Positions 840 through 50,152 of a DNA stretch of 50,216 nucleotides are shown here, piece by piece. The stretch comes from an uncultured Bacteroidales bacterium (GTDB lineage: Bacteria; Bacteroidota; Bacteroidia; Bacteroidales; Bacteroidaceae): NCBI GenBank assembly GCA_945836755.1, contig CAMAMB010000012.1, forward strand, positions 1 to 50,216, read 5' to 3'. The position numbers and the translations under genes were made by a program. Numbering within the stretch: the first letter of the stretch is position 1; every line of letters starts with the position of its first letter. Below the pieces are notes generated by a model. That model had not been told where the DNA came from. It saw nothing but the letters and a program-made list of their open reading frames with translations, and did no database searches.

Positions 840-2981
840 TCATGAAGAAAGGCTCTGCAAATAAGCTGTGAGCACTGCCAATACCTGCTCACCGTATCTT
901 TCCACAAACCGTGGCCCTATGTGAGGGGTTGCCAGAAGTTCTGCCTCGTCTGTGGGAAGAGTGCGGCAGAGCGAAATGAGCGCCTTGTTGTGAGCCACCA
1001 TATAGGGAGGCAAGCCATCAGACTTTGCCTGTAGTGTACGCCAAGCCTGCAACTTATCAAAAAGCATCAGGTGGGGAATATCCTCATTCACGCTCTCCGG
1101 CTGAGAGGTAGACTTTTTACCTTTCTTGCCACCACGTGGGGCAGAAACCTTCCCGGCCTGCATCGTAAGGCGCAGACGGGTTTCTTGATACGTGTGTACA
1201 TCGAAGGGGTGCTCGGCAGCATAACGTAGCAAGGTCATGTGGTCCTGAAGGAGGCCGGTGAGGATTTGGTGCAACTGCCGGTATCGACGTTGGACGTCTT
1301 TTTGGTCAGTGACGATGGTGGTGGCGGAAGCGATGGCCGCTGCAAGGGTGGCAAGACGACCATCAAAGTAGGTGGCAGCTGCTTGCAGACGCTCGAGAAG
1401 TCGGTCATCAGAGATTGTAGGACTACCGGCGGCCCAAAGATGTATATACTGCCGACGGAAAGTGCCGGCTACAATCATGACGTGCTTATCGAAATCGGCC
1501 AGCTCTCGGCGGATGGCACCTACGAGGTGTGGTTGCAGGCTATACAACTTAGTCTCAGCAAGTCGGAGCATCTGTGCCAAAGTCACTCTCTCCTCTTCAA
1601 AGGTAAAAAGCTCTGCCATCAGATCGCCCGTATATGCCCGTTGCATAGAGGCTATATCTACTTCGGAGGGTAACTGTACACGGAGACTGCTTGCAAAGGC
1701 CCGTACTGAAGGATCGGTAATAACGGCTGAGGGGGTGAGAGGCTGGGTAAGAATGATGCCTTGCAAACTCCGGCATCTACTGAGAGCGACGTAGGTCTGG
1801 CCTGCTGCAAAAGCAGCCGAAGCATCTATGATGACGCGCTCAAAAGTGAGGCCCTGGCTCTTGTGAATGGTAATGGCCCATGCCGTACGCACCGGGAACT
1901 GGATAAATGAACCCTCCACACTCTCTTCCACCTCCTGGGTGTCCTTATTGAGCTTATAGCAGACTTTGTCCCAACGCTCCGGCTCAACCTCTATAAGTTC
2001 TTCCCCATTGCGCGGACGCACCGTGAAACCATCTGAGGAGATATCAACGACCTCTCCAAGCAACCCATTGTAAAAGCGCTTCTCGCTATTATTCTTGACA
2101 AACATCACCTGTGCCCCTTTCTTTAGGACAAGGTGCGGGTCGGTAGGATAGTACATGGCGGGGAAGGTGCCGCTTAATTGCGCCTCGTAGGTATAGGGCT
2201 GAGAGTCAGTCAAGGCATCCAGCATGGCTTGATTGATGTCGTCAGCCTGACGATTGTGGGTGACCAACCGTGGTACACCCTTAATGGCGGGATCGGCAAG
2301 CGACATGCCGGGCTGATAGCGGGTATTCAGCAGACTGAGCACATTCTCGTCGCCACGTCCTTCTCTCAAAGCATTGAGCAAGGACAGGAAACGGGAATCG
2401 GTCTGGCGATACACATTCTGTAGCTCGATGGTCACATAGCGGGTGGCTGCGAGAGCCTTGCTACTGAAGAAATATGGTGTGGCGTAATAATCACGCACCA
2501 CGTCCCATTCCTCGGGCCTCACCACCGGTGCCAGCTGACCGAGATCGCCAATCAGAAGCAGCTGTATACCACCGAAAGGCGACTGACGTTTACATATAGT
2601 ACGCAGAACCTCGTCAATGGCATCCATCACATCGGCTCTGACCATGCTCACCTCGTCTATTACGATAAGGTCAAGGCTACGAATGAGCTTCTTCTTATGT
2701 TCCGCCATGCGGAAGACATTAGAAGGTAGCCGACTACCGGGCACAAAAGGCGAGAAGGGTAGCTGAAAAAAGGAGTGAAGGGTTGCCCCGCCAGCATTGA
2801 TGGCAGCGATGCCGGTCGAGGCGAGGACAATCATGCGCTTGGAAAGCATGTCGTGAAGACTTTTCAGAAAGGTAGTCTTGCCCGTACCAGCTTTCCCGGT
2901 CAAGAAGAGGGAGGTATGAGTGTCGTTGAGTATACGAAGGGCCGTCCGGGCCTCTGGGTTGTCGGAGAACGATATAGGCAT
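840..2981 (-). CDS. Pif1/RecD-like superfamily 1B DNA helicase with C-terminal HRDC domain
   Basis: A 713-aa ATP-dependent 5'-3' DNA helicase by family. Residues about 25-36 form Walker A (LTGKAGTGKTTF). Walker B follows (LIVIDEVSMV), then motif III (GDLGQLAPV) and a UvrD_C_2-type C-terminal motor (AWAITIHKSQGLTFERV with YVALSRCRS, motifs V/VI). After a linker rich in Lys/Gly/Ser, the last 70 residues (DKLQAWRTLQAKSDGLPPYM through IGPRFVERYG) are a clear HRDC domain, a nucleic-acid-binding module found in RecQ helicases. This Pif1 core plus HRDC layout is common in Bacteroidetes. The likely role is repair or replication-fork maintenance, including structured DNA. It lies 18 nt downstream of the Spy-like gene on the same strand, so it may be the last gene of the sigma-factor operon, although no functional link is obvious. 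Confidence 0.9.
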   Translation of the reverse strand: MPISFSDNPEARTALRILNDTHTSLFLTGKAGTGKTTFLKSLHDMLSKRMIVLASTGIAAINAGGATLHSFFQLPFSPFVPGSRLPSNVFRMAEHKKKLIRSLDLIVIDEVSMVRADVMDAIDEVLRTICKRQSPFGGIQLLLIGDLGQLAPVVRPEEWDVVRDYYATPYFFSSKALAATRYVTIELQNVYRQTDSRFLSLLNALREGRGDENVLSLLNTRYQPGMSLADPAIKGVPRLVTHNRQADDINQAMLDALTDSQPYTYEAQLSGTFPAMYYPTDPHLVLKKGAQVMFVKNNSEKRFYNGLLGEVVDISSDGFTVRPRNGEELIEVEPERWDKVCYKLNKDTQEVEESVEGSFIQFPVRTAWAITIHKSQGLTFERVIIDASAAFAAGQTYVALSRCRSLQGIILTQPLTPSAVITDPSVRAFASSLRVQLPSEVDIASMQRAYTGDLMAELFTFEEERVTLAQMLRLAETKLYSLQPHLVGAIRRELADFDKHVMIVAGTFRRQYIHLWAAGSPTISDDRLLERLQAAATYFDGRLATLAAAIASATTIVTDQKDVQRRYRQLHQILTGLLQDHMTLLRYAAEHPFDVHTYQETRLRLTMQAGKVSAPRGGKKGKKSTSQPESVNEDIPHLMLFDKLQAWRTLQAKSDGLPPYMVAHNKALISLCRTLPTDEAELLATPHIGPRFVERYGEQVLAVLTAYLQSLSS

Positions 2982-10631: not shown

Positions 10632-10741
10632 CTGCATGCCGCCATCGTCGCCCGTTCGGTGTACGTCCGTCGCCTAACCGGTGTACGCTCGTCGCCTGAC
10701 CGGTGTACGCTCGTCGCCCGACAGGGCGACGATGGCGGCAT
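10632..10741. repeat. Five-unit 22-bp palindromic array, family B
   Basis: Exactly 5 x 22 bp. The three inner units (10654-10675, 10676-10697, 10698-10719) are direct repeats with core CCGGTGTACGCTCGTCGCC. The outer units carry a perfect 19-bp inverted repeat (10635-10653 with 10724-10742, CATGCCGCCATCGTCGCCC and its complement). The array is non-coding, GC-rich and lies between divergent promoters. The inner core contains TGTAC, as in family A, but the rest differs. Confidence 0.85.
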
Positions 10742-11004
10742 GTACATCAACGGACGACGTCATATACCATCGGTCCTCCTCGATATTACGGACGCCTCCA
10801 CCGGTGCAGCCCGGACACCGCCTCCACGCAGCCTTGACGGAGCGAATTACCGGCTACCCTCAGAAAGGACGCGGTGAGTGAAGGCCGGGCAGCAAAGGGG
10901 CATATACTTCACCCCCGGACCATTAAGCAGGAGGCATCGTGTTAAAATGAAATAAGAATTTCACAAAAACAATAAGGAAGGCCGTCAGACTGCGCAAGGC
11001 GTGA

Positions 11005-11012
11005 TAATTTTG
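11005..11012 (+). promoter_or_regulatory. -7 element for htrA
   Basis: TAATTTTG fits TAnnTTTG and lies 84 nt upstream of the htrA ATG. No clear TTG is seen at 19-20 nt upstream. Confidence 0.4.
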
Positions 11013-11095
11013 CTCTGCCTTTGACACAAAGCGCCCGACGAAGGGCGCCCGACGAAAGTGCATCACTACAAATCACACACATATATATACCCATT

Positions 11096-12541
11096 ATGTT
11101 CAGCAAACCACTTACTCTCTTATCCCTGGCAGCAACTCTCACGCTGACTGCCCCCGCAGTGGCAGCTGTGCCTGCCAACCCGATTGACCTCACCTATGCA
11201 GCCGAGAAGGCTGTCAACTCTGTGGTCTACATCAAGGTGGTGACTAACAGCCGTACACAGACCATCACCGGTTTCCGCGATCCATTTGAAGACTTCTTCG
11301 GCGACTTCTTCGGCAGAGGAGGCGGCAGCCAACAACGCAAGATACAGACCCCGAAGCGCACAGGTGCAGGTTCAGGGGTCATACTTACTGAAGACGGGTA
11401 CATCGTCACCAACAACCACGTGGTGCAGGAGGCTGACGAGATTACCGTCAAACTGAACGACAACCGCGAATTTAAGGCACGCATCATCGGTACCGACGCC
11501 ACTACCGACCTCGCCCTGATCAAGGTAGAGACCAAGGACCTGCCCGCCATCAAGGTGGCCTCAAGCGACGACCTCAAACTCGGCCAGTGGGTGCTCGCCA
11601 TCGGTAATCCGTTCAGCCTGACCTCCACAGTGACCGCAGGCATCGTCAGCGCCAAGGCGCGCAGCCTCGGAGCCAAGCCCGGCAGCATCGAAAGCTTCAT
11701 TCAGACCGACGCAGCCATCAATCCCGGCAACTCAGGCGGTGCTCTGGTTAACCAGCAGGGTGAACTCGTGGGCATCAACGCCATGATTTACTCCCAGACA
11801 GGCTCCTACGCCGGCTACGGCTTTGCCATCCCCACCACCATCATGAACAAGGTAGTGAGCGACCTGCGCACCTACGGCACCGTGCAACGCGCCCTCGTGG
11901 GCATCTCGGGACAAGACGTCTCCACCTACATCGACCAGCAAAAGGAAGAGGGTAAGGAAGTGGATCTTGGCACTGTCAACGGCATCTATGTGGCTGAGGT
12001 GACACCCGACGGGGCTGCCTCACGCGCAGGCATCAAGCCCGGCGACGTCATCACCACCATAGACGGCAAGAAGATAGAGAAATTCGGCGAGCTGCAGGAG
12101 ATTATGGCCAACCACAAGCCCGGCGACAAGGTCAACATTACTTATATGCGCGACAAGAAGACACACACTGCCACCCTCACCCTGCGCAACATCCAGGGCA
12201 CTACCACCGCCGTCAAGACCGTGGACACGGAGGCCATGGGTGCTGCCATGCGTGCCCTCACCGACAAGGAGAAGGAAGAGCTCGGCCTGTCTTACGGTCT
12301 GCTCATCACCGCCATACGCGACGGTAAAATGAAAGAAGCCGGCCTCAGCAAGGGCCTCATCATTCTCAAAGTCAACGACAAGGAGATGCGCACCATCGAA
12401 GACTTTGAAGACATCACCAAGCAGGCCAACCTGAGCACGGAACGGGTGCTCTGGATACGAGCACGCACCCAGAGCGGCTACTCTCGCTCGTTTGCCGTAG
12501 AACTCTCGGAGGACAAGGATAACGTGGGCGCCAAGAAGTAA
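11096..12541 (+). CDS. Periplasmic Do/DegQ-type serine protease (HtrA)
   Basis: A 481-aa trypsin-fold protease and chaperone of the envelope. It has a signal peptide MFSKPLTLLSLAATLTLTAP cleaved near AVAAVP. Catalytic triad: H108 (TNNHVV), D138 (TTDLALIKV) and S213 (NPGNSGGALV). A Gly-rich LA-loop region (FFGDFFGRGGGS) precedes the core. Two PDZ domains follow: the first is typical (GIYVAEVTPDGAASRAGIKP), the second more divergent (LLITAIRDGKMKEAGLSKGL). The frame is open 25 residues upstream, but the signal peptide fixes the start at 11096. Single-gene unit ending in a strong bidirectional terminator. It probably degrades or refolds damaged periplasmic and outer-membrane proteins. Confidence 0.94.
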   Translation: MFSKPLTLLSLAATLTLTAPAVAAVPANPIDLTYAAEKAVNSVVYIKVVTNSRTQTITGFRDPFEDFFGDFFGRGGGSQQRKIQTPKRTGAGSGVILTEDGYIVTNNHVVQEADEITVKLNDNREFKARIIGTDATTDLALIKVETKDLPAIKVASSDDLKLGQWVLAIGNPFSLTSTVTAGIVSAKARSLGAKPGSIESFIQTDAAINPGNSGGALVNQQGELVGINAMIYSQTGSYAGYGFAIPTTIMNKVVSDLRTYGTVQRALVGISGQDVSTYIDQQKEEGKEVDLGTVNGIYVAEVTPDGAASRAGIKPGDVITTIDGKKIEKFGELQEIMANHKPGDKVNITYMRDKKTHTATLTLRNIQGTTTAVKTVDTEAMGAAMRALTDKEKEELGLSYGLLITAIRDGKMKEAGLSKGLIILKVNDKEMRTIEDFEDITKQANLSTERVLWIRARTQSGYSRSFAVELSEDKDNVGAKK

Positions 12542-12566
12542 GCGCCCCAGTCCTCCCACGATACAC

Positions 12567-12620
12567 TGAAAGTCCCCTTAGCGGTGCACGCCATGGCTGC
12601 ACAGGCTAAGGGGACTTTCA
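12567..12620. terminator. Bidirectional terminator htrA / CHB_HEX_C gene
   Basis: Perfect 16-bp inverted repeat (TGAAAGTCCCCTTAGC at 12567-12582 and its complement at 12605-12620) between convergent genes, with A/T-rich ends on both sides. Confidence 0.8.
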
Positions 12621-12641
12621 ACTATCAACAAGCGGAGCGCG

Positions 12642-14855
12642 CTACCGCACCATGAGTTTACGACCACCTATCAGATAGACGCCGGAAGGCAGCTGACTGG
12701 AAGCTGAAGCGGGAAGCCTGCGTCCAAGAAGGTCGTACACACCGCCGTCGGCCGGGCTGCTGATACGGGGAGCGGCTATGCCAAGCGCCGTAAGCTCGTT
12801 CACCGAAAACTCCCCACCTACGGCTGCGGCCAGAGCGGCATCTAAGGCGAGCACACAGTGGCCCGGCACACAGTGGAAAGGACCGCCGGCCGACGCTCCA
12901 TACTGAAAGGACGGACGAACGGCAGCCTCACAATGTTCGTCAGCCAGTTGGTAAAAGGAGACCGCATCAGGGCATAACTCGTCGGCCATGGCGCCCACCG
13001 CTGTACCGACCAGCAGATTGTCGGCAGGTGGCAGGTCGTTAGTCTGTGCGGCGGCAAAGGTATATTGACGGGGCGTGCCATTGAGCAAGAGGGGCGTGGA
13101 GGCCGGCACAATGCTGCCCGACGGATAGCGGTACTCTATGACAAGGGGCGTCAACGCTTCCTCTCCCTCACGGCGCGCCCGCAAAATGCCTCCACGCAGG
13201 CCGTCGGGCATGACAAAGGCATGAGGGCTATAGAGAGTGGCATAACAGAGAGACGAGACCGTGGCGTCAACCCTGCGGAAAAGATGGAGGGAGAGATTGG
13301 CCTCAGAGGTGTATGTGCTGAAACGGTCTGAGTAGACGTTGTAACCCATGTAGGAGAGATTGCTCTTATAGTAAGGATGGTGGAGACGGAAGCTGCTGGC
13401 CTCGCTATCGGTGGGGAAATCGTACTCCCACTTGGCGCCGGCCTGCAGAGCGAGGGACTCGAGCCTGAGATAGTTGCCACCCGATGGAGAAGTACGTGGG
13501 TCGTAGAGGTAAGCGTTTGCCGGGACATGGAGCAGGTGTATCTTGGCGGCCTCACGCAATATGCGTATCTCGTTAGGCCCTTCAGTGACATTGAGACTGT
13601 CTGCACTCACGCTGACAGACTGCCCCACGACAGCTACGGGGGCACCGGTGAAGAAGTTGCCGGACTGGTCGATAGACGACAAGGCATAAGCCTCGCCCTG
13701 AAGACCAACACCGACGAGCAGGTAATGGCCTCCGTCGACCACATCCTCGTCTGCCAATACCTGCGTATAGGCGTACCGCCCCTCGGAGAGGTGGATAAAT
13801 TTTGCGGTGACTACATCGCTGAGAAAGTCGGCCGTAGCTGCAACGACCTTGAGCGTAGTGGTAGCAGTGAGGAGAAGCCCTTCAGCGGGGAAGGGAGTAG
13901 AGGCAGGAGAAGGCGTGGTGCCATCGGTGGTGTAGTAGATGGCAGCCTCGGGCTGCGGGCTGTGGGCATAAACCCTGAGGGGAGCAGTGAAGACGGTGTT
14001 GTCCGCCACGGAAAGAGTGGGCGCCACTACCCCAAAACGATAAGTGCGCGTCGCGACCTCGCTTGCTACCCCATCGAAATACGACACCGCAGACACAGTG
14101 GTCTCGGAAGCAAGCACGATGGGCTCGGAGTAGAGCGTGCCCTCGGTGGGAGCGTCGGCAAGATTGACAGCCTCATTGAGCGTGTAGTAGATGGATGCCC
14201 CGTCTACAGGCGGAGTAAGGATAAGTGAGCGGGAGGTAGCATACGTGCCACTCTCAAGGCTGAAGAGTGGCGGCGCAAGGGTGGCAACAGCCGTCTGCCA
14301 CTCGACGGTAATGCTCTCAACCATCACCAGGCCGGCCTGCTGGCTGCCCCCATACACAATGGCAAAGTGGGTATAATCGCCTTCTACCTCAAGGGTCGTG
14401 GTCTGCTTGTCAAAGACGCCGAGCTTGTCGCCGCGCGTGCCGGCCACATAAGCGCTCTGCATGGACGGATAGGCGCTATGACTGCCGTATACCACAAGGG
14501 TGGTGGGAGGATTGGCGGCAAAACGGATAGTAATCGATTTTAATCTGCCCCCTGAACGGGAGGTGTAAATCCCTGTCTTCTCGGCAGCCTTAGTAGCATA
14601 CGAGAAACATATATAGTTGCCCACTTCTGTCTCGGTAAGCAAAGAATAGCTGTAATACTCCGCACCTGAAGCCGTAGAGACGGCGGGACCATGGAGCTTC
14701 TTCTCAGAATAGGTGGAATGAAAAAAGGCAGCCGTAATGACATCTGTCACTACTTCTGCCTGTAAGGCCGTGGGTATGGCAAGCCACAAAAGCAAAAGCG
14801 ATAGGAGAATAGACTTCTGCCTATTGGGCTGACAGCTGACGCTATGAGGGTTCAT
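12642..14855 (-). CDS. Secreted multidomain protein with chitobiase-type Ig domains and T9SS-like C-terminus
   Basis: A 737-aa secreted protein. The signal peptide is near SILLSLLLLWLAIPTALQAE. An N-terminal beta-sandwich-like region ends about residue 190 (VESITVEWQ). Two CHB_HEX_C-type Ig-like domains follow, each with the hallmark of increasing YYT followed by a lure for TDGT/TLNE: ASIYYTLNEAVNLADAPTEG and AAIYYTTDGTTPSPASTPF. A beta-rich region of unknown fold covers about 360-650. The last residues, VYDLLGRRLPASASSQLPSG then VYLIGG, resemble a T9SS type A sorting domain. No catalytic domain is visible, so a surface adhesin or carbohydrate-associated role is more likely than an enzyme. 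It starts only 6 nt after the lipid kinase gene and is probably cotranscribed with it and miaA. Confidence 0.75.
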   Translation of the reverse strand: MNPHSVSCQPNRQKSILLSLLLLWLAIPTALQAEVVTDVITAAFFHSTYSEKKLHGPAVSTASGAEYYSYSLLTETEVGNYICFSYATKAAEKTGIYTSRSGGRLKSITIRFAANPPTTLVVYGSHSAYPSMQSAYVAGTRGDKLGVFDKQTTTLEVEGDYTHFAIVYGGSQQAGLVMVESITVEWQTAVATLAPPLFSLESGTYATSRSLILTPPVDGASIYYTLNEAVNLADAPTEGTLYSEPIVLASETTVSAVSYFDGVASEVATRTYRFGVVAPTLSVADNTVFTAPLRVYAHSPQPEAAIYYTTDGTTPSPASTPFPAEGLLLTATTTLKVVAATADFLSDVVTAKFIHLSEGRYAYTQVLADEDVVDGGHYLLVGVGLQGEAYALSSIDQSGNFFTGAPVAVVGQSVSVSADSLNVTEGPNEIRILREAAKIHLLHVPANAYLYDPRTSPSGGNYLRLESLALQAGAKWEYDFPTDSEASSFRLHHPYYKSNLSYMGYNVYSDRFSTYTSEANLSLHLFRRVDATVSSLCYATLYSPHAFVMPDGLRGGILRARREGEEALTPLVIEYRYPSGSIVPASTPLLLNGTPRQYTFAAAQTNDLPPADNLLVGTAVGAMADELCPDAVSFYQLADEHCEAAVRPSFQYGASAGGPFHCVPGHCVLALDAALAAAVGGEFSVNELTALGIAAPRISSPADGGVYDLLGRRLPASASSQLPSGVYLIGGRKLMVR

Positions 14856-14861
14856 AGAATG

Positions 14862-15797
14862 CTAAATGTGGAGTGGAACAAGGAAATCTATCTCGTCGTG
14901 GAGTATATCTACTTCAAGCGTGGACGCGGTAAGTGTGAGCGAACGGCCATCTACGCTGAGCGGCGTTTTCGCGGCATGCAGGAACGTCACCTTAGAGGTA
15001 CGCCATACGCTGATGCCTTTGTGGATGAGGAAATGACCGGTGAAGAGCAACCACAACCCTTCGAGCAGCTGGCGGGTAAGGGGCGTCTTGACCAGCGTAA
15101 GGTCTAACATTCCGTTGTAAGGGACCGCACTGGGCGTAAGACCGTATCCTCTGGCCGAGCCGACGCAGAGGGTCATGCCGGAACGCTTCTCCACCTCACC
15201 ATTCAGGCGGAACTGATATTTGAAGTTCATCTTCTTGAACAGCAGACAGCATGCAGCGAAGAGGTAGCTCAACGCCTTGAAACTGCAAATGCTGTGGGTA
15301 CGACGGCGAAGGCGGGTAATGGAGGCTGCAACCCCTAAGTGAAGACAGTTGATAAAGTAATGTGTCTCTGCATCGCCTTCAGGCACGGCGAACCTAATGC
15401 GCCCCACATCTATCTTGCGTGTATGGCGATAGATAAGGCGGTCGATGGTCTGTTTGTAGTCGGCAGCCTGCATCCCCCAGTATCTGGCGAAATCATTGCC
15501 GAACCCATTGGGGATAACCCCTAACGCAGGATGAGAGGAGGCGGGCGACGGGGTACGCATGATGCCATTCAGCGCGTGGTTGAGGGCTGAGTCGCCGCCC
15601 ACGACTACTATTGTTCTATAGCCGGAACGGGTCATCATAGCCGCCAAGCGTTCGACCGACCCCGGGCCCTCGCTCTGGACAAAGTCGAATACTACGCCTT
15701 TATGTTCGAGGTACTTGCGGATTTTCAACCAGCGCTTGTGGGTCTTGGCAGACCCTTCCTTGGGACAATAAATTACTCCCCACGAAGTTGACGGCAT
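14862..15797 (-). CDS. Diacylglycerol kinase-family lipid kinase (YegS/DagK-like)
   Basis: A 311-aa cytosolic or membrane-associated lipid kinase. The DAGK catalytic motif is VVVGGDSALNHALNGIM, a slight variant of GGDGTxxxxxNG in which the second Gly is Ser. PALGVIPNGFGNDFARYWG is the second conserved nucleotide-binding block (PxGTxNDFAR). A C-terminal beta-sandwich contains YNGMLDLTLVKTPL and SVDGRSL. The ATG at 15795-15797 (MPSTSWGVIYCPKEG) is preferred because the first strand begins right there; an alternative ATG at 15839 would add 14 residues and nearly touch miaA. The product is likely a phosphorylated diacylglycerol or sphingoid lipid, both used in Bacteroidetes membranes. Confidence 0.85.
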   Translation of the reverse strand: MPSTSWGVIYCPKEGSAKTHKRWLKIRKYLEHKGVVFDFVQSEGPGSVERLAAMMTRSGYRTIVVVGGDSALNHALNGIMRTPSPASSHPALGVIPNGFGNDFARYWGMQAADYKQTIDRLIYRHTRKIDVGRIRFAVPEGDAETHYFINCLHLGVAASITRLRRRTHSICSFKALSYLFAACCLLFKKMNFKYQFRLNGEVEKRSGMTLCVGSARGYGLTPSAVPYNGMLDLTLVKTPLTRQLLEGLWLLFTGHFLIHKGISVWRTSKVTFLHAAKTPLSVDGRSLTLTASTLEVDILHDEIDFLVPLHI

Positions 15798-15852
15798 ATT
15801 GGTGTGGTTATCGGATAACGTATAAATAAGCCTTGACAATATACAGCGCGGA

Positions 15853-16746
15853 TCAGAAGCCTGTTAGCTCCAAGGCCTCGGTAGCGGACATCCAGTGGAT
15901 GGGAACACCCCGCCGCTCCATACCTCGGAACCAGGTCATCTGCCGCTTGGCAAACTGATGGATGGCTATCTCAAGCTGAGAGAACATCTCATCGTAGGTC
16001 AGACGCCCTAAGACGTAGAGCGTCACATACTTGTACTCTAACCCATAATACAGAAGATCTTCGGCTGCAATGCCTTCAGAGAGCAGGGCCTCTACTTCTC
16101 CAATCAAGCCGCCGGCAAGACGCTGCTGCAGACGCCGGGTAATGCGCTGGCGGCGCGTATCCCTGTCCACCTGCAGACCTATGACATAGGCAGAGAGCTT
16201 GGGGAAGGGAGGTGTTTGCTGTGAGTGGGTGCGACTGAACTCGGCTATCTCAATAGCGCGAATGGCTCGCTGACAAGTATCTACGTCGGTTGTGTTATGC
16301 AGCTGCTTATACTGCCCCAGGATAGCGGTCAACTCACTCAGGGACTTATTACTCAACGCCTCACGCAGCCCCTTATTTTCAGGCACAGGCGGCAAGGCAT
16401 AACCGCGAAGTATACTCTCTAAGTATAAACCCGAGCCGCCGCAGACAATGGCACGGTGGCCTTTCTCCCGGATGGTATGATAGGCTGCCAGGAAGTCTTG
16501 CTGGTAGCGAAAGACATTATATTTGGTGCCCGGCTCTACTATGTCGATCAGATGGTAAGCAACGGGCTTCCCGTCTAACGTATACTCGGCGAGGTCTTTC
16601 CCGGTCCCAATATCCATTCGTCTATATACCTGACGGCTGTCGGCACTTATAATTTCACCGCCGATACGCCGGGCGAGCTTTACCGCCAAGGCAGTCTTGC
16701 CACAAGCGGTGGGACCGAGAACGGTAAGTAGGTCGTAACGTTGCAT
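15853..16746 (-). CDS. miaA: tRNA dimethylallyltransferase
   Basis: A 297-aa enzyme that adds a dimethylallyl group to N6 of adenosine 37 in tRNAs reading UNN codons. The P-loop GPTACGKTAL is at residues 11-20, followed by ISADSRQVYRRMDIGTGKD and the conserved YHLIDIVEPGTKYNVFRYQ. The C-terminal region includes GLEYKYVTLYVLG and FAKRQMTWFRG, the tRNA-binding part. Standard length and start. First gene of a likely three-gene minus-strand unit with the lipid kinase and the secreted CHB_HEX_C protein. Confidence 0.95.
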   Translation of the reverse strand: MQRYDLLTVLGPTACGKTALAVKLARRIGGEIISADSRQVYRRMDIGTGKDLAEYTLDGKPVAYHLIDIVEPGTKYNVFRYQQDFLAAYHTIREKGHRAIVCGGSGLYLESILRGYALPPVPENKGLREALSNKSLSELTAILGQYKQLHNTTDVDTCQRAIRAIEIAEFSRTHSQQTPPFPKLSAYVIGLQVDRDTRRQRITRRLQQRLAGGLIGEVEALLSEGIAAEDLLYYGLEYKYVTLYVLGRLTYDEMFSQLEIAIHQFAKRQMTWFRGMERRGVPIHWMSATEALELTGF

Positions 16747-16848
16747 AAGTAGAACCTGTTAGACCGAGCGACATGCCGGTCAGCCGGAGAAGTAAACCCG
16801 GAGTACGTCAAAAGGGATTAGCATGAAGGCTCGGGGGTGCAGCAAGGC

Positions 16849-17013
16849 ATGGGCGCCTTTGAAGGAGACTTGACTACCATCGAAGCGAGCCTGACGACCA
16901 TCACAGATAGCCTAACTGCAACGCAGCAAGGCATGAGCGCCTTTGAAGGAGGCCTGACTGCCATCGAGGCAAATCTCCATGCACACTTGGCGCACACTCC
17001 GACGATTGAATAA
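16849..17013 (+). CDS. Short heptad-repeat (coiled-coil) ORF, possibly a remnant
   Basis: An open frame of 54 codons plus stop in the miaA-gapA intergenic region. The DNA has a 21-bp period and translates as exact heptads: GAFEGDL, TTIEASL, TTITDSL, TATQQGM, SAFEGGL, TAIEANL, with hydrophobic residues at positions 3 and 7 as in a coiled coil. DNA copies at 16839 and 16923 are 84 bp (four heptads) apart and nearly identical. The frame is closed by a stop at 16819-16821, so the longest form starts at GTG 16837. No signal peptide, promoter or family was recognised. It may be a real microprotein, the tail of a larger coiled-coil gene that was lost, or a chance consequence of a 21-bp repeat. Confidence 0.35.
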   Translation: MGAFEGDLTTIEASLTTITDSLTATQQGMSAFEGGLTAIEANLHAHLAHTPTIE

Positions 17014-17054
17014 AAGTCGGGGCGCGCAATACTTTTTACAGCACAGCACGCCCC
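17014..17054 (-). terminator. Terminator of gapA
   Basis: On the minus strand GGGGCGTGC (complement of 17046-17054) pairs with GCGCGCCCC (complement of 17019-17027), allowing one G-U pair. The tail GACTTTTATT follows. It lies 30 nt beyond the gapA stop codon. Confidence 0.7.
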
Positions 17055-17083
17055 GCTGATCAGTTGTACTTCTGAGCTACAGG

Positions 17084-18100
<1,017 letters not shown>

Positions 18101-18319
18101 TTAGGGATAATAGAACTATTAAAATGGGGTTTATAATTCCGTGGATGAACTCTATGGCGGTCAACAAGCTATTCGCGGCCACTCTCTCCTTACTAAAAAG
18201 TCGTCCATACACTATGCAAACAGGGCGTACCTCTATCAAAAGAAAGCGCTGCTTGAGAAAGTGGCCGGTTCACTGCCACTTTTTCACTTGAAACCGCGGC
18301 AAAAATACGAAAACCTTTT

Positions 18320-18327
18320 TACTTTTG
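18320..18327 (+). promoter_or_regulatory. -7 element for mscL
   Basis: TACTTTTG fits TAnnTTTG, 29 nt upstream of the mscL ATG. No TTG is found at 19-20 nt upstream; the nearest (in CACTTGAAAC) is about 30 nt away. Confidence 0.5.
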
Positions 18328-18356
18328 CGCCAAGTTACATGTAATAAATTTTCAAA

Positions 18357-18782
18357 ATGAACCACACTTCTTTCATAAAGGAATTCAAAGATTTTGCCAT
18401 CAAGGGCAACGCGCTTGACATGGCTGTAGGTGTCATCATTGGCGGCGCGTTCGGAAAGATAGTATCTTCCATCGTCAATGACCTTATCATGCCGCCCGTG
18501 GGATGGCTTATCGGAGGCATTGATTTTAAGGACCTTAAATACGACCTGCCTCTCAACCCGCTGCAAGAGGGAGCCGAGCCTGTCAGCATAGCTTACGGCA
18601 ATTTCATCCAGACATGCCTTGACTTCTTCATCATTGCCTTCTGCGTCTTCCTCCTCATACGCACCCTCATGAAGCTGACACGCAAAAAGCAAGAGGAGCA
18701 GGCGACCCCGGCCCCACCGCCCACGCCTGAAGACATCGTGCTTCTCCGCGAGATACGCGATGCCCTGAAAAAGGACAAGTAG
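18357..18782 (+). CDS. mscL: Large-conductance mechanosensitive channel
   Basis: A 141-aa inner-membrane channel that opens under membrane tension to release solutes during hypo-osmotic shock. The amphipathic N-terminal helix and TM1 are seen in [20 protein letters not shown] and [20 protein letters not shown], the canonical pore-lining signature. TM2 is [20 protein letters not shown]. The cytoplasmic helix bundle is at the C-terminus ([12 protein letters not shown]), preceded by a Pro/Ala-rich linker. Length is normal. A -7 promoter element sits just upstream, and the gene is divergent from gapA. Confidence 0.96.
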
Positions 18783-18889
18783 CCCTCCCTCTCCGCAGAG
18801 CCGCGCCCGGAACACGGCCGACGTGCCCCGACTTCGCGGCAGCGTCCTCCCCTACCCTACATCTATAGTACGCATCCTCATATCACCCC

Positions 18890-20503
18890 ATGCCACAGAA
18901 AATCATCATCTTAGACTTCGGTTCACAGACCACACAGCTCATTGCACGCCGTGTGCGCGAGATGGACACCTTCTGCGAGATACTTCCCTACAACAAATTT
19001 CCGCACGACGACCCTTCCGTCATAGGTGTCATACTCTCCGGCTCGCCCTTCAGTGTATACGACGCCGAGGCTTTCAGTATTGACCTTCAGCACATCCGCG
19101 GTCGGTACCCTATCCTCGGTATCTGTTATGGTGCCCAATTCATGGCCCACACTTACGGGGGCAAGGTTGAGCCGGCAGGCAGCCGCGAGTATGGCAGAGC
19201 CTGCCTCACCCACATCGACGCGACCAACCCCCTCTTCGCCGGTTTCGACGTCCGCTCTCAGGTCTGGATGTCCCACGGCGACACCATCACCGCGCTGCCG
19301 TCCCACTTCAAGCGCATAGCTTCTACCGAGAAGGTCGAAAATGCGGCCTATCAGGCTGAGGGAGAGCCATTATGGGGCGTACAGTTCCACCCCGAGGTGT
19401 TCCACTCCACGCAGGGCAGCCTGCTGCTCCGCAACTTCGTCATCGGCATCTGCGGCTCACGCCAAGAGTGGAGTGCAGCCTCTTTCGTCGACAGCACCGT
19501 GGCTCAGCTCAAAGCCCAGCTGGGCGACGACCGCGTCATACTCGGCCTCTCGGGCGGAGTCGACAGTTCCGTGGCCGCCGTTCTGCTCAACAAGGCCATC
19601 GGCTCACGCCTCACCTGCATCTTCGTAGACCACGGCATGCTGCGCAAGGATGAAGCTGCCGACGTGCTCCGTGACTACGAAAGCCTCGGCCTCAACGTCA
19701 AGGCTGTGGACGCTTCCGAGAAGTTCTTCAGCGACCTCGCCGGAGTCACTGACCCCGAGCAGAAACGCAAGATCATAGGCCGCGACTTCGTAGAGGTGTT
19801 CAACGCTGAGGCGCAGAAGGTTGAAGGTGCCAAGTGGTTGGCCCAAGGTACCATCTACCCCGACTGCATCGAGAGCCTCAACATCACGGGCAAGGTCATC
19901 AAGAGCCACCACAATGTGGGCGGCCTTCCCGAAAAGATGCACCTCAGTCTGTGCGAACCACTCCGCTGGCTCTTCAAGGATGAAGTGCGCCGCGTGGGAC
20001 GCCAGCTGGGCATGCCCGAACACCTCATTACACGTCACCCCTTCCCCGGCCCCGGCCTTGCCGTCCGCATACTGGGTGAGGTCACTCCCGAGCGTGTGCG
20101 CATACTCCAGGAGGCAGACCATATATATATACAGGGCCTGCGCCACTACAAGATAACGCTCCCCGCCACCGAGGCCCGTCAGCGTCTCTCCGCCGGACAT
20201 CCCGCCACCCTTCAGGAGAGCGGCGAAGTCAGCGTCTCCCTCTACGACCTTGTGTGGCAAGCCGGCACCATCCTGCTGGCCGAAGTGCGCAGCGTAGGCG
20301 TCATGGGCGACGAGCGTACCTACGAGCACCCCGTGGCCCTGCGCGCCGTCACCAGCACCGACGCCATGACGGCCGACTGGGCGCACCTGCCTTACGACTT
20401 CATGGCCAAGGTCTCCAACGACATCATCAACCACGTGCGGGGCGTCAACCGCGTCTGCTACGACATCTCGTCGAAGCCGCCCTCAACCATAGAGTGGGAA
20501 TAA
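18890..20503 (+). CDS. guaA: GMP synthase (glutamine-hydrolysing)
   Basis: A 537-aa enzyme that aminates XMP to GMP. The N-terminal class I glutamine amidotransferase has its nucleophile C79 in GICYGAQF and the conserved GVQFHPE. The ATP pyrophosphatase PP-loop is LSGGVDSSV (about residues 220-228). The C-terminal dimerisation/XMP-binding part contains [15 protein letters not shown] and ends in [18 protein letters not shown], the normal GuaA terminus. Located 107 nt after mscL on the same strand and followed by a strong terminator. Purine synthesis is also represented by purC 5 kb downstream, but in a separate unit. Confidence 0.96.
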
Positions 20504-20606
20504 ATCCCTGCACACCTTCCACCCATACGCAGCGCCGTGCCCGGCGTCATGCCCCACCTCCCCCATGGGCAGACCACCGGCTGCTGCCCACAGCATCCAC
20601 CCCACG

Positions 20607-20640
20607 AGGGGGAGAGAGACCACCACGTCTCTCTCCCCCT
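20607..20640 (+). terminator. Terminator of guaA
   Basis: Perfect 14-bp stem (AGGGGGAGAGAGAC at 20607-20620 with its complement at 20627-20640) and 6-nt loop CACCAC, followed by TTGCTCTTT. It lies about 100 nt past the guaA stop. Confidence 0.75.
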
Positions 20641-20678
20641 TGCTCTTTCCGAGTGCTGCAAGGCACTCCGCCATTTTT

Positions 20679-20798
20679 AGAAGCATTAGCGCGAGTGACA
20701 TTGGGCCGGATGTCACCTTGCTTTCGGGCGGATGCCACCTTGCTTTCGGCCCAATGCAACCTGACATTCGGCCCAATGTCACTCGCCGGAATGCTTCT
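20679..20798. repeat. Five-unit 22-bp palindromic array, family C
   Basis: Five 22-bp units span 20687-20796. The three inner ones start at 20709, 20731 and 20753 with GATGTCACCTTG, GATGCCACCTTG and AATGCAACCTGA and end in TTCGG plus GCG or CCC. The first and last units are inverted copies of each other, forming 30-bp arms (20679-20708 with 20769-20798) with three mismatches, core GCGAGTGACATTGGGCCG. Layout matches array B at 10632-10741, but the sequence differs. Confidence 0.85.
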
Positions 20799-28506: not shown

Positions 28507-28510
28507 CAGT

Positions 28511-28660
28511 GTTTTTCATGGTATTAGATTTAAGGTTAGTAAGAGATTGGTTGTCGAGAGACAATCAATCTTTTTTATATCCCATACCTATTGTCGTCCT
28601 GTCGAAGCAACGATATATTGCATGAGGACGGGGCATTTCCCTCGATATACGTCGCTTCAC
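28511..28660 (+). ncRNA. Candidate small RNA with internal terminator-like hairpin
   Basis: Directly downstream of a good promoter. At 28545-28576 there is an 11-bp stem (GATTGGTTGTC / GACAATCAATC, one G-U pair) with a GAGA tetraloop and six T, a strong intrinsic terminator that would give a transcript of about 65 nt. Beyond it, 28604-28618 pairs with 28645-28658 (GAAGCAACGATATAT with ATATACGTCGCTTC), forming a second imperfect stem that could extend the RNA to about 150 nt. Small frames cross it but look incidental. Family not recognised with certainty. Confidence 0.5.
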
Positions 28661-35046: not shown

Positions 35047-35248
35047 GCTTTCATAGGAAGCTATCTTGACGTGCTCCCAAGGAGAGGTGAAGACCGGCAG
35101 GAGGTGTTTCGATCATAGTCATTTGACCTATGGCGATGCAGTACCGTGATATGATATAGTCAAAGGCTGACATGGCTATGTACACCGGGGTAAGGCGTCG
35201 CTTCACCAACCGCCTTGGAAGCAAGGGAGACCCCACTGGAAGTAGATG

Positions 35249-35468
35249 TGGTGAAACGTTAGATATACGCGTAGGAAAAGCTGGATGTACATGCAGGAAA
35301 AACTACATGTACATGTAGAAAATCTTAGATGTACATGCAGGAAAAACTAGATGTACATGCAGGAAAAACTACATGTACATGCAGGAAAAACTACATGTAC
35401 ATGTAGAAAATCTTAGATGTACATAGAGGAAAAACCGGATGTACATGGAGGACAACTTAGATATACAT
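35249..35468. repeat. Ten-unit 22-bp tandem array, family A (inverted orientation)
   Basis: Ten 22-bp units: one degenerate (35249-35270) and nine clear (35271 through 35468). Consensus GCAGGAAAAACTAGATGTAC, that is the reverse complement of the unit at the window edges. Two alternate types occur, GTAGAAAATCTTAG... (35315, 35403) and GCAGGAAAAACTAC/G... The palindrome ATGTACAT recurs every 22 bp. Units degrade at both ends (ATATAC). Confidence 0.95.
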
Positions 35469-35656
35469 ACAGGGGTAAAGAAATAAGCAGAGCGTGCGCT
35501 GCATCCACTTACAGGGAATACAGGCACGCTCTGCGAGGAGAGAGCAACCTTCTCAAAAGGCTCGAGCTACAGACTCACAGGAGCTACATGGCAGAGAAGG
35601 GGAATAAGGTCATAAGAGACATATCGGCCAAGCGGCAGGGATAGCCAGAGAGCCTT

Positions 35657-35695: not shown

Positions 35696-38600
35696 TTATT
35701 TGGCTACAAACTTGACCACGGTGGTGACGCCGTCAATCTCAGCAGCGAGCTGGTATACACCGGCTGTGGAGAGAGAGAGAAGGGCGTGCTGGCCTGCAGC
35801 GGTCTCGTTCATCTCCTTGACTACGACAGCACGACCGGCTGCATCGTACACCGTGAGCACGACATGATGGGCAGTCGGAAGGGTGACGATGGCCTTCAGT
35901 GCCTCAGCGGTGACGGTCACTGCCGAGGGAGAAGCAGGCGCTGTCTCAATGCCGGCTGAGGTGGAGACGATGAGGGGCACTTGCTGCGTGGTAGTAGCAC
36001 CGTTGACATCGGTAGCCGTCAGAGTGAGGGTGGTACTACCCTCACCCATCGTGGCAATGATGAAGCCGCCCAGGGAAGTATAGGCAGCTGCCACACCGGC
36101 ATCGGCTACAGTGGCAGTATAGGTCATGTCATCGCCGTCGGGGTCGGAGAAGAAAGAGGTAAAGAGATAGATGGGAGTAACCTGTCCCGGAGCAAGCACA
36201 ATCTCCTCGACACCTTCATAGACAGGGGCACGGTTGGTATGCTCCACCTGATAGTGAGCCTGGGCCGTGCTGACACTACCGGTCTCATCAGTGGCGGTGA
36301 AGGCAACGGTATGGGCACCGGCCTGGCCATAGGTGGGAGCCAGCTGCAAGTCGAGGGTGAGCGAGTAGCCAGCGGCTACACGGACACTGCCATCGTCAGC
36401 AATTTCGACACCTTCAGTGGAGCCGTCTGCTGAAGTGGCTGCCAGGATGGTGGCAGCCTCGCAGTCGTCGGAGAAACTGAGCGTGAAGGCATCGCCCTCG
36501 GCATCGGTCACTACGGTACGCAGGATGGCCACATCTCCCTCTGCGACGGTGAGAGTGGAGGCCGGCACTGTGATGAGAGGAGCTGCATTGCGGTCGAGCG
36601 TGATGTGGTAGTTGACGAGCTTCTGAGAAGGATCGTTGGTATGGATGACGAGGGTGGCCTTGTTGTCCTTATCGAAGTAGGTGTTGGCAGCTTTCACTGC
36701 GAACTTGACAGGCAACTGCTCACCCGGAGCAAGTTCGCCCTCGGTCTGCGCATCCAAGAGACGAATCCAGGGCTCGCCGGCCTCGCGTTCTACGCAGGTC
36801 ATGAAGAAGCCCATGGCACCGTAGCCATAATTGGCATCGAGCATCTCTTCCACGTCAAACCATCCGCCGAAGCTGTTGAGATAGGCCATGTAGCGGTTGG
36901 GTGACTTGCTGCCGTCCTTGTTGACAAGCATGGCAGAGTGGCCATAACCGGCGGGATACTTAACCACCACATAGAAGGTATCGGCGGGGTTGATGAAGAC
37001 AGGGCTATCGAAGGTAAGCATGCGGGGCTCACCATAGTAGCCGCCGTCACGGGGTTCTTCTTTCTCCACACGGAGTTTGCCATGGCCAATCTGGCTGCCC
37101 TTGGTCACATCGCTGCCGTAGATGACGGTAGCCTCTATATCTACATTTTCGAGGTCACCAATCGTACCCACGAAGTAGAGGTGGCTGAGGTTGAAACCCT
37201 GGTCAGGGGCTACGAAGCGAGTAGCGGCATAGAAATTGTCAGTAAGCGTAGAGCCTGTACCAAGGATGGCCGACTTGGCCGAAGAGACAGGCTGGAGCAC
37301 GGGATAGTAGATGAGGTTGCTGTACTCCGTGCCCTTGGGCACATCGTAGATGTAGGCATCCTGGTCGCCCTGGCCGTCGCTGAAATTGAACAGGCTGATT
37401 GCCGAGCCACCACGTGCGTGGAGCTGAGCGCCAATGGAGTCAGGAGCAAGAGGGCTGAAGGTGTTGGCCGCAGGGGCTACACCGCCACCGCCTTCCTCGT
37501 CGACCACAGGCACTTCGTCGCGACCTGAGGGGTCGAGCCGCAGAGAGTACTTCAACTTATAGGCGCCTTCATTGGCAATGGTAAGGGTTTCCTCGCCCTC
37601 GTAGTCGGGCTTCACATTGGTGATGGCAATGGTCTCGCGGTCGAGGGTCATGACGGGAGCGTCGGTCAGCACGATGTGGAAGGGCACCACAATCTGGTCT
37701 GTGGCCAGGCCGCTGACATGGAAGGTTATGGGGAGCGATGCCTCTGTGGGCATGCCCTGGTCCATGAAGAGCAACTTAAACTTGACGGGCTCGGTGCCGA
37801 CCACAATGGGCTCGGTCAGATAGTTGACATTCGACCAGTCAGTCACCCACTCGTCCCACCAGCTGTCATAATAAGTGGTATAGACGGTAAGGTAAGCAGG
37901 TATGGGCTGATAGTTCTCCCAGTCGAAGTCTGGGTCGTTGTTGTCCGGCTCGGGGTTGAAACTGATGGCGTCGATGGTGAACGCGGCACTGCCGGTATTC
38001 TTCACCTCAAACTCATATTCCAAAGTAGGATAGTTGAGATAGTCGGCCACCTCTTCAATCTCAAACGGCTGAGGGAAGACGGGGTTAGGCTGGCCGTTGA
38101 TGACAAGCTTAACGGGCAGGGTGACAACCTCCTTACCGGGCACATTGGTATGGATGGTGATGGCACGGTCGTACTCGCCGGCGAGGTCGTTGGCATAGAT
38201 GTCGATAGGCACACTCACCTGGCCACCGGCGGGCACATTGATGGTCTTGACAGGTGCGAACTCAATGGCATTGCCAGAGACGATGTAGCTGTCGGAGAGG
38301 GTGAGGCCACGCTGGCAACTCTCGTCCTGGAAACCGCAAAGTCCATAAATGCCAAGCACCATGCCTGTCTCGTTGAGGTTGTACTGGAACTTGAAGCGAC
38401 CATCCTTGTACATGATGAGCTGATAGTTCATTCCGATCATGGCGCTGTTGCCATAATTCTTGAAGGATACAATCACTCGGTCGTCTTCAGCCTTGTAGAA
38501 CACGCCGTCTGTACTCGAAACGTCCATGGTATGGTTGCCCCAGAAGGGAGCAATGATATTCTTGTAGAACGTATCGGTGGTAGGCAGCCCAGCGGGAGGT

Positions 38601-41600
38601 TCGGGGAAGTTCTTGTAATCAGCCCCTATGTCAGTGAACGATACGAAGCCTGTATTGTAGATGTACATCTTCTTATAGTTGACACCATAGAAGGGGAACT
38701 CGAATGGCAGGTCGACGGTATAGTAGTCAGTCTGGTCGAGGAAGTAAGACATGGGGAGGTGGGCATCGGCCGTCTCGGTGATGTCTTCCCACTTATAGTC
38801 CACGCCCTGATCGTCGCTCTTGGCCTTGAAAGAGTAGTCGACAGAGGAAGTCTCGTCGACGGTCACATCATTACGGCCGTACCAGGCTTCGGGATAGAGG
38901 CTGAAGGTCAGAGGCTCGTTGCCATCGTTCTTGATGACGAGCTCCTTGCTGATGGTTGCACCATGGTTGACAGTCTCTTCGATGGCCTCGGGAGCAAGCG
39001 CCCACTGGGGTACACCAATCACTTCGCCCTCGAGCTGCACGTGTATGGGTTCAAGTCCCTGGAAGGTGAGGACGAGTTGATCGGTTACTGCGCCTTCCAG
39101 CTCGGTGGGCAGATAGACGTCTATATCGCGGCCCTGGCCGGGCTCAACCACGAATGGAACCTGAAGCGACGCGTCGAGACGGAACTTGCCATCGGTCACA
39201 GCCACGCTCTCAACGGTGAGAGGACTGCGGCCCTTGTTGCTAAGGAGCACGGCACGGCGAGGCGTGGAGGTGCGGAAGTGGCGGCCGAAACTGATGGTCT
39301 CGGTGTCGACAACGGCAAGCGGCCGGAGGTCGCCCTCGATGTTGGCCTTAACTACAAGATTCTTGGTAGGCGTCTGGGGGTCGTTGGTAGCGACAGTGAG
39401 AAGATTTTCAATAGCGCCTGCATAGACCTTATCGCCGGCCTTGACGGTTACAGTGACTTCCTGACTATCGCCAATACCTATGACGCCATCAGCAGGAGAC
39501 ACGCTCTCGATGATGGAGGTGGCTGGAGCTAAGATTTTGACTGCCGTGCCGGTCTGGAACTGAGAGTAGATATAGTTGTCGTAGTCGCAGACAGCATCCC
39601 AGTCGGTCACGACGAACTCGTCGGCACAGTCGGGATCGCTCACAGCGCACATGAGGTAGCCTCCCTCACCGAACACCGTGGTGGGATCGTAGTCGTCATA
39701 GTAAACCTCTACGCTGCCATCGGGGCAGAGAGCCATGTGGAAGCTGATGATCGTCTTTTCGTCGCCCCCACGGAGAGCCGGGGTAATCACATTCTTAAAC
39801 TTGACCACGAACTTGCCATCCTGGCGGCCATAGGTAATCTTGCTGTTCGTATTGAGGTCAAGGTGGCCTGAATTGGCATAAGCCGAGATGTAGCCCAGGC
39901 CATTGACACAATTAGCCGTGGGGACAAGGCAAGCAATGTTGCCATCGGCCGTATACATGGAGACGCCACCATGAGAGGAGATGTAAACCTGCTCATAGTC
40001 CTGTCCATAGAAGGGGAACTTGAAGCCGAGGCTTACAGGCTCGCTCAACCACTGGTGGTCAGAGAACTGGCTGGTAATATCCGTCTCGCTGACCAGCTCA
40101 CGGTTGCCATCATAAGCGAAGGCATCACTGCCATTGAGATTAGAGATGTAGGTGTAACCAAACTTGTGGCCGGAGGCTCCCGCGAGGGTCTTGGCGCTAT
40201 ATTTAGGTATGACAAACTCAAGGGGGTACTGTCCGGCGTTCGAGATGGTGAACGAGGCCGTCTTGGTCTCACCGCCAACCGTGAGGGGACCCACGTCGAT
40301 AGTGTCCTTGTCTACCTCTATCTTGGCGGGATCTACTGCCACGCCACGCACGGTGAAGGTATGCTTGATACCGGCCTTGGACGTGAGCGTCACCGTGCCA
40401 CTAAGGCTTCCGGCTCGGGTAGGCTTGAAGGTGACATCTATCGTAGACTTGCCGCGGGAAGCGATGGCGGGCATATAGGTGGGCACCTGGAACTGGTCGG
40501 AGCTACACTTGATGTTGCTGCTACCCAAGGAGCCATAATTGCCACCGAAGACGCCATAGCCGGAGTTGACGAGCTCAACGCTCAAAGTCTTGGTCTCACC
40601 CACGAGCAGCTCGCCGAAGTTGACGAGGCTGGCGCTGCTGAGAGCCGGGACGTTGTTCTTGACAGTCATATTGACTGCCACCACGTGGTCGGCAGCCTCA
40701 GACTCATTGCTCTTTACCTTGAGGTTGAAACGATATGTACCATTGACAAGGCTCTGCCCATCATTGGTCAGTTGCACATCTTGGCTCTCGCCGGCGCGCA
40801 CCGTGCCCTCAATAGGCTCAGGCTTCAAGACAGCACTCCAGTCGGGGTTCTTGCTAATGGCAGTCACGTCCCAGACAAGCTGGTCGGCTACATTTTCATA
40901 GATACCGCCCTTCACGGCTTCTGCGAGCTGCTGCCAAGTGGCACCGTTGTCGTTGCTGAAGAAGCTGTAGTTTCGCAGTCCTGTCTGCTCGGTCTTACCG
41001 GCGCCAAGGGGGTTGGTCTGTCCTACTGGGAACTTGGCCACTACCCAGAAACTGGCTCCGGCAGGGAAGTAGAGTTGCTCGGTGAGGTTGATGTCGTAAT
41101 TGTAGGCCCAGAAACTATAGTTCACCTTCGCGAGAAGGGACGCGGCAGAGATGGTCTTGGATCCATCGTAGATTTCAATATCGGGGGCGGTACCGTTCAT
41201 GCCTCCAAACTTCAACGCCGTGAGATTAAAGCCTTCGGGATAGGTATCGGGATCTACATAGAAGTACTGCGCCAAGGCATTGGGCTTGGTCTTGTCTTCG
41301 TCGCCAAGGTAGGCCCAGATAGATGAGGCGTACGTGAGCTGCTTGGGATAGTCGGTGGCTTGATAGTCGGCCGTAACAAGGGGATGGCTGGCAGCTTTGG
41401 CCACCACCAGATGTGCATTGGCGGGTACAACATGACCGGGCGCGGGCTGCTTCTCCACTGCGCTGGTGGCCACGCTGACGCTGCGTGTAGCCGCCGTAAG
41501 CTGATACTTGAGCATACCCTCGCCCACATTGCTTATGGTGAACTGCGAAGTGGCTACAGGACTATTCTTAGCATCAACAGTCATGGAGAGCGTGGAAGCG

Positions 41601-49867: not shown

Positions 49868-49875
49868 CAAAGATA
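49868..49875 (-). promoter_or_regulatory. -7 element for the secreted low-complexity protein
   Basis: TATCTTTG on the minus strand, 25 nt from the ATG. The nearest CAAAA on the plus strand (49900) would give a 24-nt spacing, longer than usual. Two further copies of the element exist upstream in the tandem repeats but read TATCTTTA. Confidence 0.5.
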
Positions 49876-50095: not shown

Positions 50096-50152
50096 TGTCA
50101 CGCCACGCTGAAAGCACCGCCCCAAGGTGAGCGGCAAAAACGCCGGGACTAT

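Follow-up and report, generated by a model that had tools for sequence, protein, structure and literature searches.

Repeated sites about two helical turns apart, bound by protein subunits, are found in plasmid-origin iterons and at the ends of Tn7 and Mu, and E. coli carries bacterial interspersed mosaic elements (BIMEs), which are mosaic intergenic clusters of short modules lying in either orientation. Here we describe intergenic arrays with a period of 22 bp in a 50,216-nucleotide stretch of DNA from an uncultured Bacteroidales bacterium (the window, which is the whole of contig C12 of the genome called G000 here), together with arrays of 21 or 22 bp elsewhere in that genome and in its relatives. 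The arrays keep this lattice between genes while their units are private to single genomes; they occur as dispersed copies, one family combines a constant linker with a changing core, and three arrays are kept in place between two sister species. Among described elements, BrickBuilt is a miniature inverted-repeat transposable element (MITE) of Porphyromonas gingivalis with intergenic arrays of 23-nt units, 19 copies per genome, long predicted stem-loops, and both filled and empty sites (PMC4596501). One half of its unit is more variable, leader and tail segments are present, and there are IS5-like ends with some target duplications; 22- and 41-nt arrays in P. gingivalis W83 are also cited (PMC4596501). 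The repetitive extragenic palindromic (REP) elements and their paired forms (REPINs), accompanied by REP-associated tyrosine transposases (RAYTs) and including the GTAG and CGTC superfamilies, are short palindromic intergenic repeats that are often species-specific and clustered and may fold as larger hairpins (PMC3733652).

The present arrays share with BrickBuilt an intergenic position, predicted stem-loops, the bacterial order, a unit with one more variable half and a nearly equal unit length. The length itself differs, being 23 nt there and 21 or 22 bp here, and the units described here vary between species. Period 23 was seen in no array of G000 or of the same-genus samples, and in two arrays at one (L088) of 80 other loci. 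The arrays resemble BIMEs as mosaic clusters of intergenic modules in both orientations; however, the 150 kb of E. coli scanned held no period-21/22 array. Iterons and the ends of Tn7 and Mu mark single origins or element ends, whereas the arrays described here occupy many dispersed intergenic loci. In contrast to REP/REPIN systems, G000 has no Y1 transposase match, and no covariation with RAYTs is seen. Units of family A (below) contain CTAC/GTAG and those of family B CGTC, as short words not aligned to the published REP consensus. No description of the class beyond P. gingivalis was found in searches of an open-access library. Features that keep their spacing while changing their letters escape sequence searches, which may explain the absence of an earlier description.

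Five arrays in the window and the period in the genome

An earlier note made from the letters of the window alone had proposed an exact 22-bp period at five loci. All five were recovered, and at the threshold that recovers them no period-21/22 array appeared in any of 50 Markov resamplings of the window. The features are as follows.

1 to 84, no strand: A left, a family A array of period 22, unit ATGTACATCTAGTTTTTCCTAC, truncated at the contig start
10634 to 10743, no strand: B element, inverted arms 10634 to 10653 and 10724 to 10743 enclosing three TGTACG units (at 10660, 10682 and 10704)
20667 to 20687, minus strand: degenerate 21-bp D-type unit, AATGCTTCTAAAAATGGCGGA on the minus strand, overlapping the left end of C
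20680 to 20797, no strand: C element, inverted arms 20680 to 20707 and 20770 to 20797 enclosing 22-bp units, with inner anchors 88 bp apart (4 x 22)
about 35270 to 35480, no strand: A middle, about nine 22-bp units, core ATGTACAT, linker mainly GGAAAAAC
about 50149 to 50216, no strand: A right, a family A array of at least three units, truncated at the contig end

A left and A right are cut short because the window spans the entire contig. The TGTAC core that the note had seen in both A and B is present in each (ATGTACAT in A, TGTACG in B), and the inverted ends that it gave to B and C were located in both elements. Its five independent loci are real, although they are not unique, as A, B and C are all multicopy families in G000.

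The G000 assembly has 2.25 Mb in 94 contigs and is 85% complete; the closest named relatives of its GuaA come chiefly from rumen Bacteroidales assemblies. As a sample not centred on arrays we used 388,600 bases of long contigs (C1, C2, C4, C5 and 40 kb of C8), giving with the window 438,816 bases, about 19% of the genome. Tandem Repeats Finder reported 40 non-overlapping arrays in the 388,600 bases, of which 19 had period 22 and 10 period 21; four had a period of 42 or 44 and seven made up all the remaining periods. In 400 kb of the same-genus genome G004, 4 of 32 arrays had these periods. A scan of the 438,816 bases over lags 12 to 45, requiring at least 32 of 44 matches, gave 8 matches at lag 21, 20 at lag 22, 5 at lag 42 and 11 at lag 44, one match at lag 27, and zero at every other lag. 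After removal of low complexity, with one period allowed per place, 31 of 33 tandem arrays in these bases had period 21 or 22 (8 and 23 arrays; the window itself has only 22), and two of these 31 lay inside predicted genes. Ten Markov resamplings of the sample contained no period-21/22 array, and together with the 50 resamplings of the window this led us to reject chance as the origin of the period. Enrichment of the period over the genome, the lack of which had been set beforehand as refuting, is thus present in the 19% sample.

The main scan is gapless and hence biased toward arrays free of indels. In a permissive gapped search, 316 of 843 arrays had period 21 or 22; indels occupied 4.8% of their positions compared with 7.55% for the other periods of 10 to 60, and 101 of the 316 were indel-free compared with 100 of 481.

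By our own crude gene calls, 86 of 91 arrays lie mainly outside predicted genes. The flanking genes of the 26 assignable arrays among 35 in G000 were tandem in 12 cases, convergent in 8 and divergent in 6, whereas the gaps of at least 100 bp gave 77, 34 and 30. The suggested preference for convergent or divergent genes was therefore not borne out, and terminator-like placement was rejected for want of an orientation preference. Folding with z < -2 on one or both strands was obtained for 59 of the 91 arrays and, among 50 intergenic stretches of G000 taken as controls, for 16; the predicted folds of B and C are long stems. An Rfam scan of the window returned three matches, none inside an array, and a known RNA family was accordingly rejected for the window arrays.

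Dispersed families and the family A linker

B is found at 15 distinct places in G000 (22 matches, with strands and overlaps merged by eye), C at 22 places (39 matches) and A at several dozen (at least 84 matches; 40 of 125 first-look candidates were scored). Many A matches start or stop at contig ends, so that a practical effect of the arrays is to break assemblies. A search for B in 58 genomes of the genus, and one for C in 37 genomes (its own, 22 others of the genus and 14 from other families), gave matches in G000 only, and a search for A among 60 relatives gave a weak match in two. When 129 consensus units were compared, 2.3% of 7,615 between-set pairs exceeded the 99% shuffle limit, and the strongest 45 such pairs were mostly family A. 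The idea that each array has a private sequence thus stands for B and C among the genomes searched; for A it holds for the core but not for the linker, which is common to five other genomes.

C is a near-palindrome whose inner units, judged by eye, lie in either orientation from copy to copy. The anchor distance was 88 bp in all 17 copies measured out of the 22 places (16 by pattern, L032 by eye), and 16 of the 17 were 78 to 89% identical to the window copy. At the 34 ends of these 17 copies conservation decays outward over about 70 bp, and therefore C has no sharp end; a 21-bp rhythm, ACGGCG..GCCTT, is retained. The consensus of 20 B ends runs into ATGTACAT and ACGGC words. The D-type rhythm at C ends and the A and ACGGC words at B ends indicate that the families share modules on one lattice, and the near full-length copies of B and C at many loci require past copying. 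Phage or plasmid origin was rejected for the pairings searched, with 0 matches to one A pattern in IMG/VR, none to A in a plasmid collection and none to C in a phage collection.

Across the sampled sets, the only 8-mer recurring on the lattice in at least three was GGAAAAAC, the A linker. The A unit consists of a core of 9 to 10 nt and a linker of 12 nt. We searched 58 genomes for two linkers with a free gap of 5 to 20 nt and obtained 65 matches in six genomes, neighbouring units of one array being counted separately. The gap was 10 nt in 59 matches and 9 nt in 6, corresponding to periods 22 and 21, and none had any of the other allowed lengths; the reversed linker pattern gave zero matches in the 58 genomes. 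The cores differ between genomes: CATGTACATC or its reverse complement and one symmetric variant in G000; GGAGCGCACC and the 9-nt TGGGAAGGC or GGGGAAGGC in G032; CTGTATAGAG-like words in both orientations and one 9-nt TTCCGCCGA in G009; CATAGGCATG in G067; GTCTATACTC and GTGTATGGGA in G072; and the 9-nt TCGCTGCGC in G016. No other observation points so clearly to a fixed length with changing letters. A CRISPR array was rejected because A cores recur across the arrays of one genome, apart from orientation and drift (cas genes were not searched).

In 219 A units from 37 loci, selected for exact TGTACA, the two bases 4.5 bp from the dyad, one on each side, were C,C in 107, G,G in 73 and complementary in 29, a paired fraction of 0.13 where 0.47 was expected. 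These like-like positions make the A core not a perfect hairpin but an oriented module, which occurs in both orientations relative to the linker. Only 8 of 46 A flanks match another flank, and no leader or tail is common to most arrays. Dispersed sequences of about 40 to 110 bp (65 to 80% identity) lie beside some A arrays; the flank loci involved are L047, L053, L061 and L062; L064 with window positions of about 35100 to 35250; and L048 with L065.

The IS5-like inverted end of BrickBuilt is GAGACCTTTGCA. Neither GAGACCTTT nor its complement occurred within 150 bp of any of 23 A arrays or in any of 400 random stretches (only A was searched), and GAGACC alone was near 2 of the 23 arrays compared with 62 of the 400 stretches. 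With no such ends near these arrays, an IS5-ended MITE was rejected for family A.

Arrays in relatives and sister species

The other genomes are mostly fragmented assemblies and were partly sampled. From 20 same-genus genomes we took 40 to 400 kb each (1.52 Mb in total), in which the same filter retained 90 arrays; 36 have period 21 and 24 period 22, another 12 have period 18, and the other 18 are spread over all remaining periods. The G032 and G009 stretches had been chosen for a weak A match and two G078 arrays were known beforehand; without these three genomes, period 21 or 22 accounts for 35 of 60 arrays. At least one such array was present in 16 of the 20 genomes and none in the samples of G004 (400 kb), G005, G081 and G061; of the two in the first sample of G015, one resembles a coding repeat and the other a nearly simple repeat. 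A single period is found in some genomes, such as G008 (seven arrays of 21) and G007 (three of 22), whereas others, such as G009 (4 and 5) and G078 (2 and 11), have both. Relatives thus carry units of their own on the same two-turn lattice, in agreement with the proposal of an intergenic class defined by architecture over sequence. The densest case is G078 (L254 to L256), with 13 period-21/22 arrays in 60 kb, belonging to several unit families that seem unrelated.

Over all intergenic DNA, lag 21 or 22 was elevated (z > 4) in 18 of 21 genomes, nine of which showed a rise at 42 or 44 as well; G004 rose no more at lags 21/22 than at lags 12, 18 and 27. Recurring 8-mers numbered 2,600 at lags 21 to 22 and 186 to 584 at five other lag pairs. 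As loci with named sources we took 1.31 Mb of DNA flanking GuaA in 80 records, most of which carry the label Bacteroidales or that of one of its families. Among the 61 arrays in this DNA, period 22 occurs 22 times, period 21 eight times and period 23 twice; the 30 arrays of period 21 or 22, counted irrespective of position relative to genes, fall in 23 loci. One of these loci, L091 from Leyella lascolaii, has a single place marked by the scan as period 22. In 550 kb from E. coli and ten Bacteroidota genomes of other orders there were five arrays, none of period 21 or 22. Four of the named Bacteroidales loci (L072, L087, L104 and L106) have two period-22 arrays each, in about 21 kb, with units that seem unlike those of the window genus.

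Over 40 kb, G017 and G015 share 92.6% identity, and all three intergenic candidate arrays of the aligned part are at the same place and in the same register in both (one passes only at a laxer threshold; three further candidates, including a simple repeat, fall in predicted genes and were excluded). One unit is flipped in place, reading CATCCCATGG in one species and CATGGGATGG in its sister. Across 12 lattice units, differences fall at 14 of 108 positions of the 9-bp core and at 34 of 144 of the linker (p = 0.036, a gap counted as a mismatch), and the divergence is 11.7% in other intergenic DNA and 6.7% in coding DNA. Array indels are scarce relative to substitutions: in the three arrays (316 sites) there are 3 indel events to 63 mismatches, and in other intergenic DNA (8,749 sites) 110 to 1,025. 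Between the G032 sample and the G000 stretches examined there was no match longer than 150 bp outside the GuaA locus. The genes on either side of one G032 array sit in two separate G000 contigs, where neither adjoins a 22-bp array, and one of these contigs has a 21-bp D array at its start; nothing firm is concluded on orthology of position between these two genomes.

Readings of the lattice

We tentatively favour, as possible rather than probable, a reading in which the arrays are phased sites of a putative lineage-specific DNA-binding protein, carried on mosaic repeats like BIMEs and REPs. The spacing is kept in relatives while the units are mostly respelled, suggesting that the spacing itself matters. 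A spacing of 21 to 22 bp held despite changing sequence points to subunits side by side on one DNA face and, with the near full-length copies of B and C, favours phased binding sites on BIME-like mosaics. The lattice would consist of short sites two helical turns apart, each unit comprising a core and a linker of about one turn each. The core would be bound by the putative protein, whose subunits would pack along one face of the DNA, and this packing would hold the spacing to 21 or 22 bp and leave the sequence free to drift. Because the specificity of the protein and the core would change together, every lineage would come to have a core of its own. Within a genome the arrays may multiply as mosaic, hairpin-prone dispersed repeats and would then be inherited in place. 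If one protein does read the lattices, Bacteroidales chromosomes would have in it a lineage-specific organiser or mobiliser whose recognition code changes rapidly, and the core swaps on a constant linker would allow the evolution of recognition to be studied species by species.

Several observations weigh against binding by such a protein. G004, of the same genus and 99% complete, lacks a 21/22 array in 400 kb; any host function is therefore dispensable there. Whole-length B and C matches at many loci need copying and not only selection on sites, and consensus units are dyad-symmetric beyond shuffles in just 22 of 91 arrays. The indels seen under the gapped search mean that the phase is not absolute, and in the sister species the indels per site (0.95 per 100 in arrays, 1.26 in other intergenic DNA) are not clearly fewer. 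The difference between core and linker is small and comes from 12 units of one species pair; a larger contrast (8 of 72 against 37 of 128) was biased, its sites having been chosen by motif, and is superseded by the all-unit count. The linker pattern was itself built from arrays in G000, G032, G009 and G016, with G067 and G072 newly found, and the 65 matches include adjacent units of an array, counted one by one. A wider version of the idea, which seems unlikely to us, is that the arrays form an order-wide class of intergenic DNA in which the two-turn geometry is conserved and the spelling swapped in each lineage. Constant linkers would carry an interchangeable address of 9 to 10 nt, and the reader would be a fast-changing DNA-binding protein or recombinase, giving a species-specific chromosomal code.

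A purely selfish element is a close rival of phased protein-binding sites, if a somewhat doubtful one. The units would be the sites of an unknown transposase that copies MITE- or REPIN-like miniature elements in trans, with old copies decaying and no gain to the host. The ends of Tn7 and Mu do hold transposase sites of about 22 bp. The same multi-unit layout of B at 15 and of C at 22 dispersed places, the inverted ends, and the patchy presence within the genus all speak for such an element, and BrickBuilt in P. gingivalis shows filled and empty sites (PMC4596501). However, C lacks a sharp end, the A arrays lack a common leader or tail, and the three sister-species arrays are orthologous, not new. 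The sole transposase tested, Y1/RAYT, gives no match in the 85% complete G000 by a Y1_Tnp search. It is present in 12 of 21 genomes: 10 belong to the 17 that carry a 21/22 array and 2 to the 4 that carry none. This family does not covary with the arrays, and RAYT-driven REPINs are unsupported. A lattice lies within about 1.5 kb (lax threshold) of 4 of 12 RAYT loci, near the 3.4 or so expected from random 3.2-kb stretches of the same genomes, and five RAYT loci searched for array words of their own genome had none except one AACCAAG in L290.

Action through RNA appears improbable to us: transcript hairpins would halt transcription or shield mRNA ends, and 22 bp would be two turns of A-form RNA. 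The excess of folding arrays over controls and the long stems of B and C would fit, but 32 of the 91 arrays do not fold below z = -2, family A retains non-complementary positions inside its dyad, divergent-gene placement (6 of 26) is about as frequent as for gaps, and Rfam matches no window array. We also give little weight, the least of all, to a by-product of mutation, in which a lineage-specific repair or replication enzyme would generate tandem or inverted duplications some two helical turns long, the sequence being free of selection. Varied unit sequences on one period with several families per genome, the core flipped in place between the sisters (CATCCC and CATGGG), as template switching at a hairpin would give, and the divergence of linkers beyond that of other intergenic DNA (24% vs 11.7%) agree with it. 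Local duplication, however, leaves unexplained both the constant linker with differing cores in six genomes and the near full-length C copies at many loci.

Other features of the window lie near or between the arrays. A PIF1/RecD-like helicase with an HRDC domain is encoded at 840 to 2981 (minus strand), near A left, and a predicted subtilase of 2,592 aa with ASH/HYDIN-like Ig and fn3 stretches at 35696 to 43474 (minus strand), beside A middle. An 84-bp tandem repeat of 2.6 copies (89% matches) occupies 49869 to 50089, immediately before A right. At 28509 to 28578 (plus strand) there is a match to Rfam RF04319, the Bacteroidetes FopS paralogous sRNA, at 77.2 bits (gathering 56).

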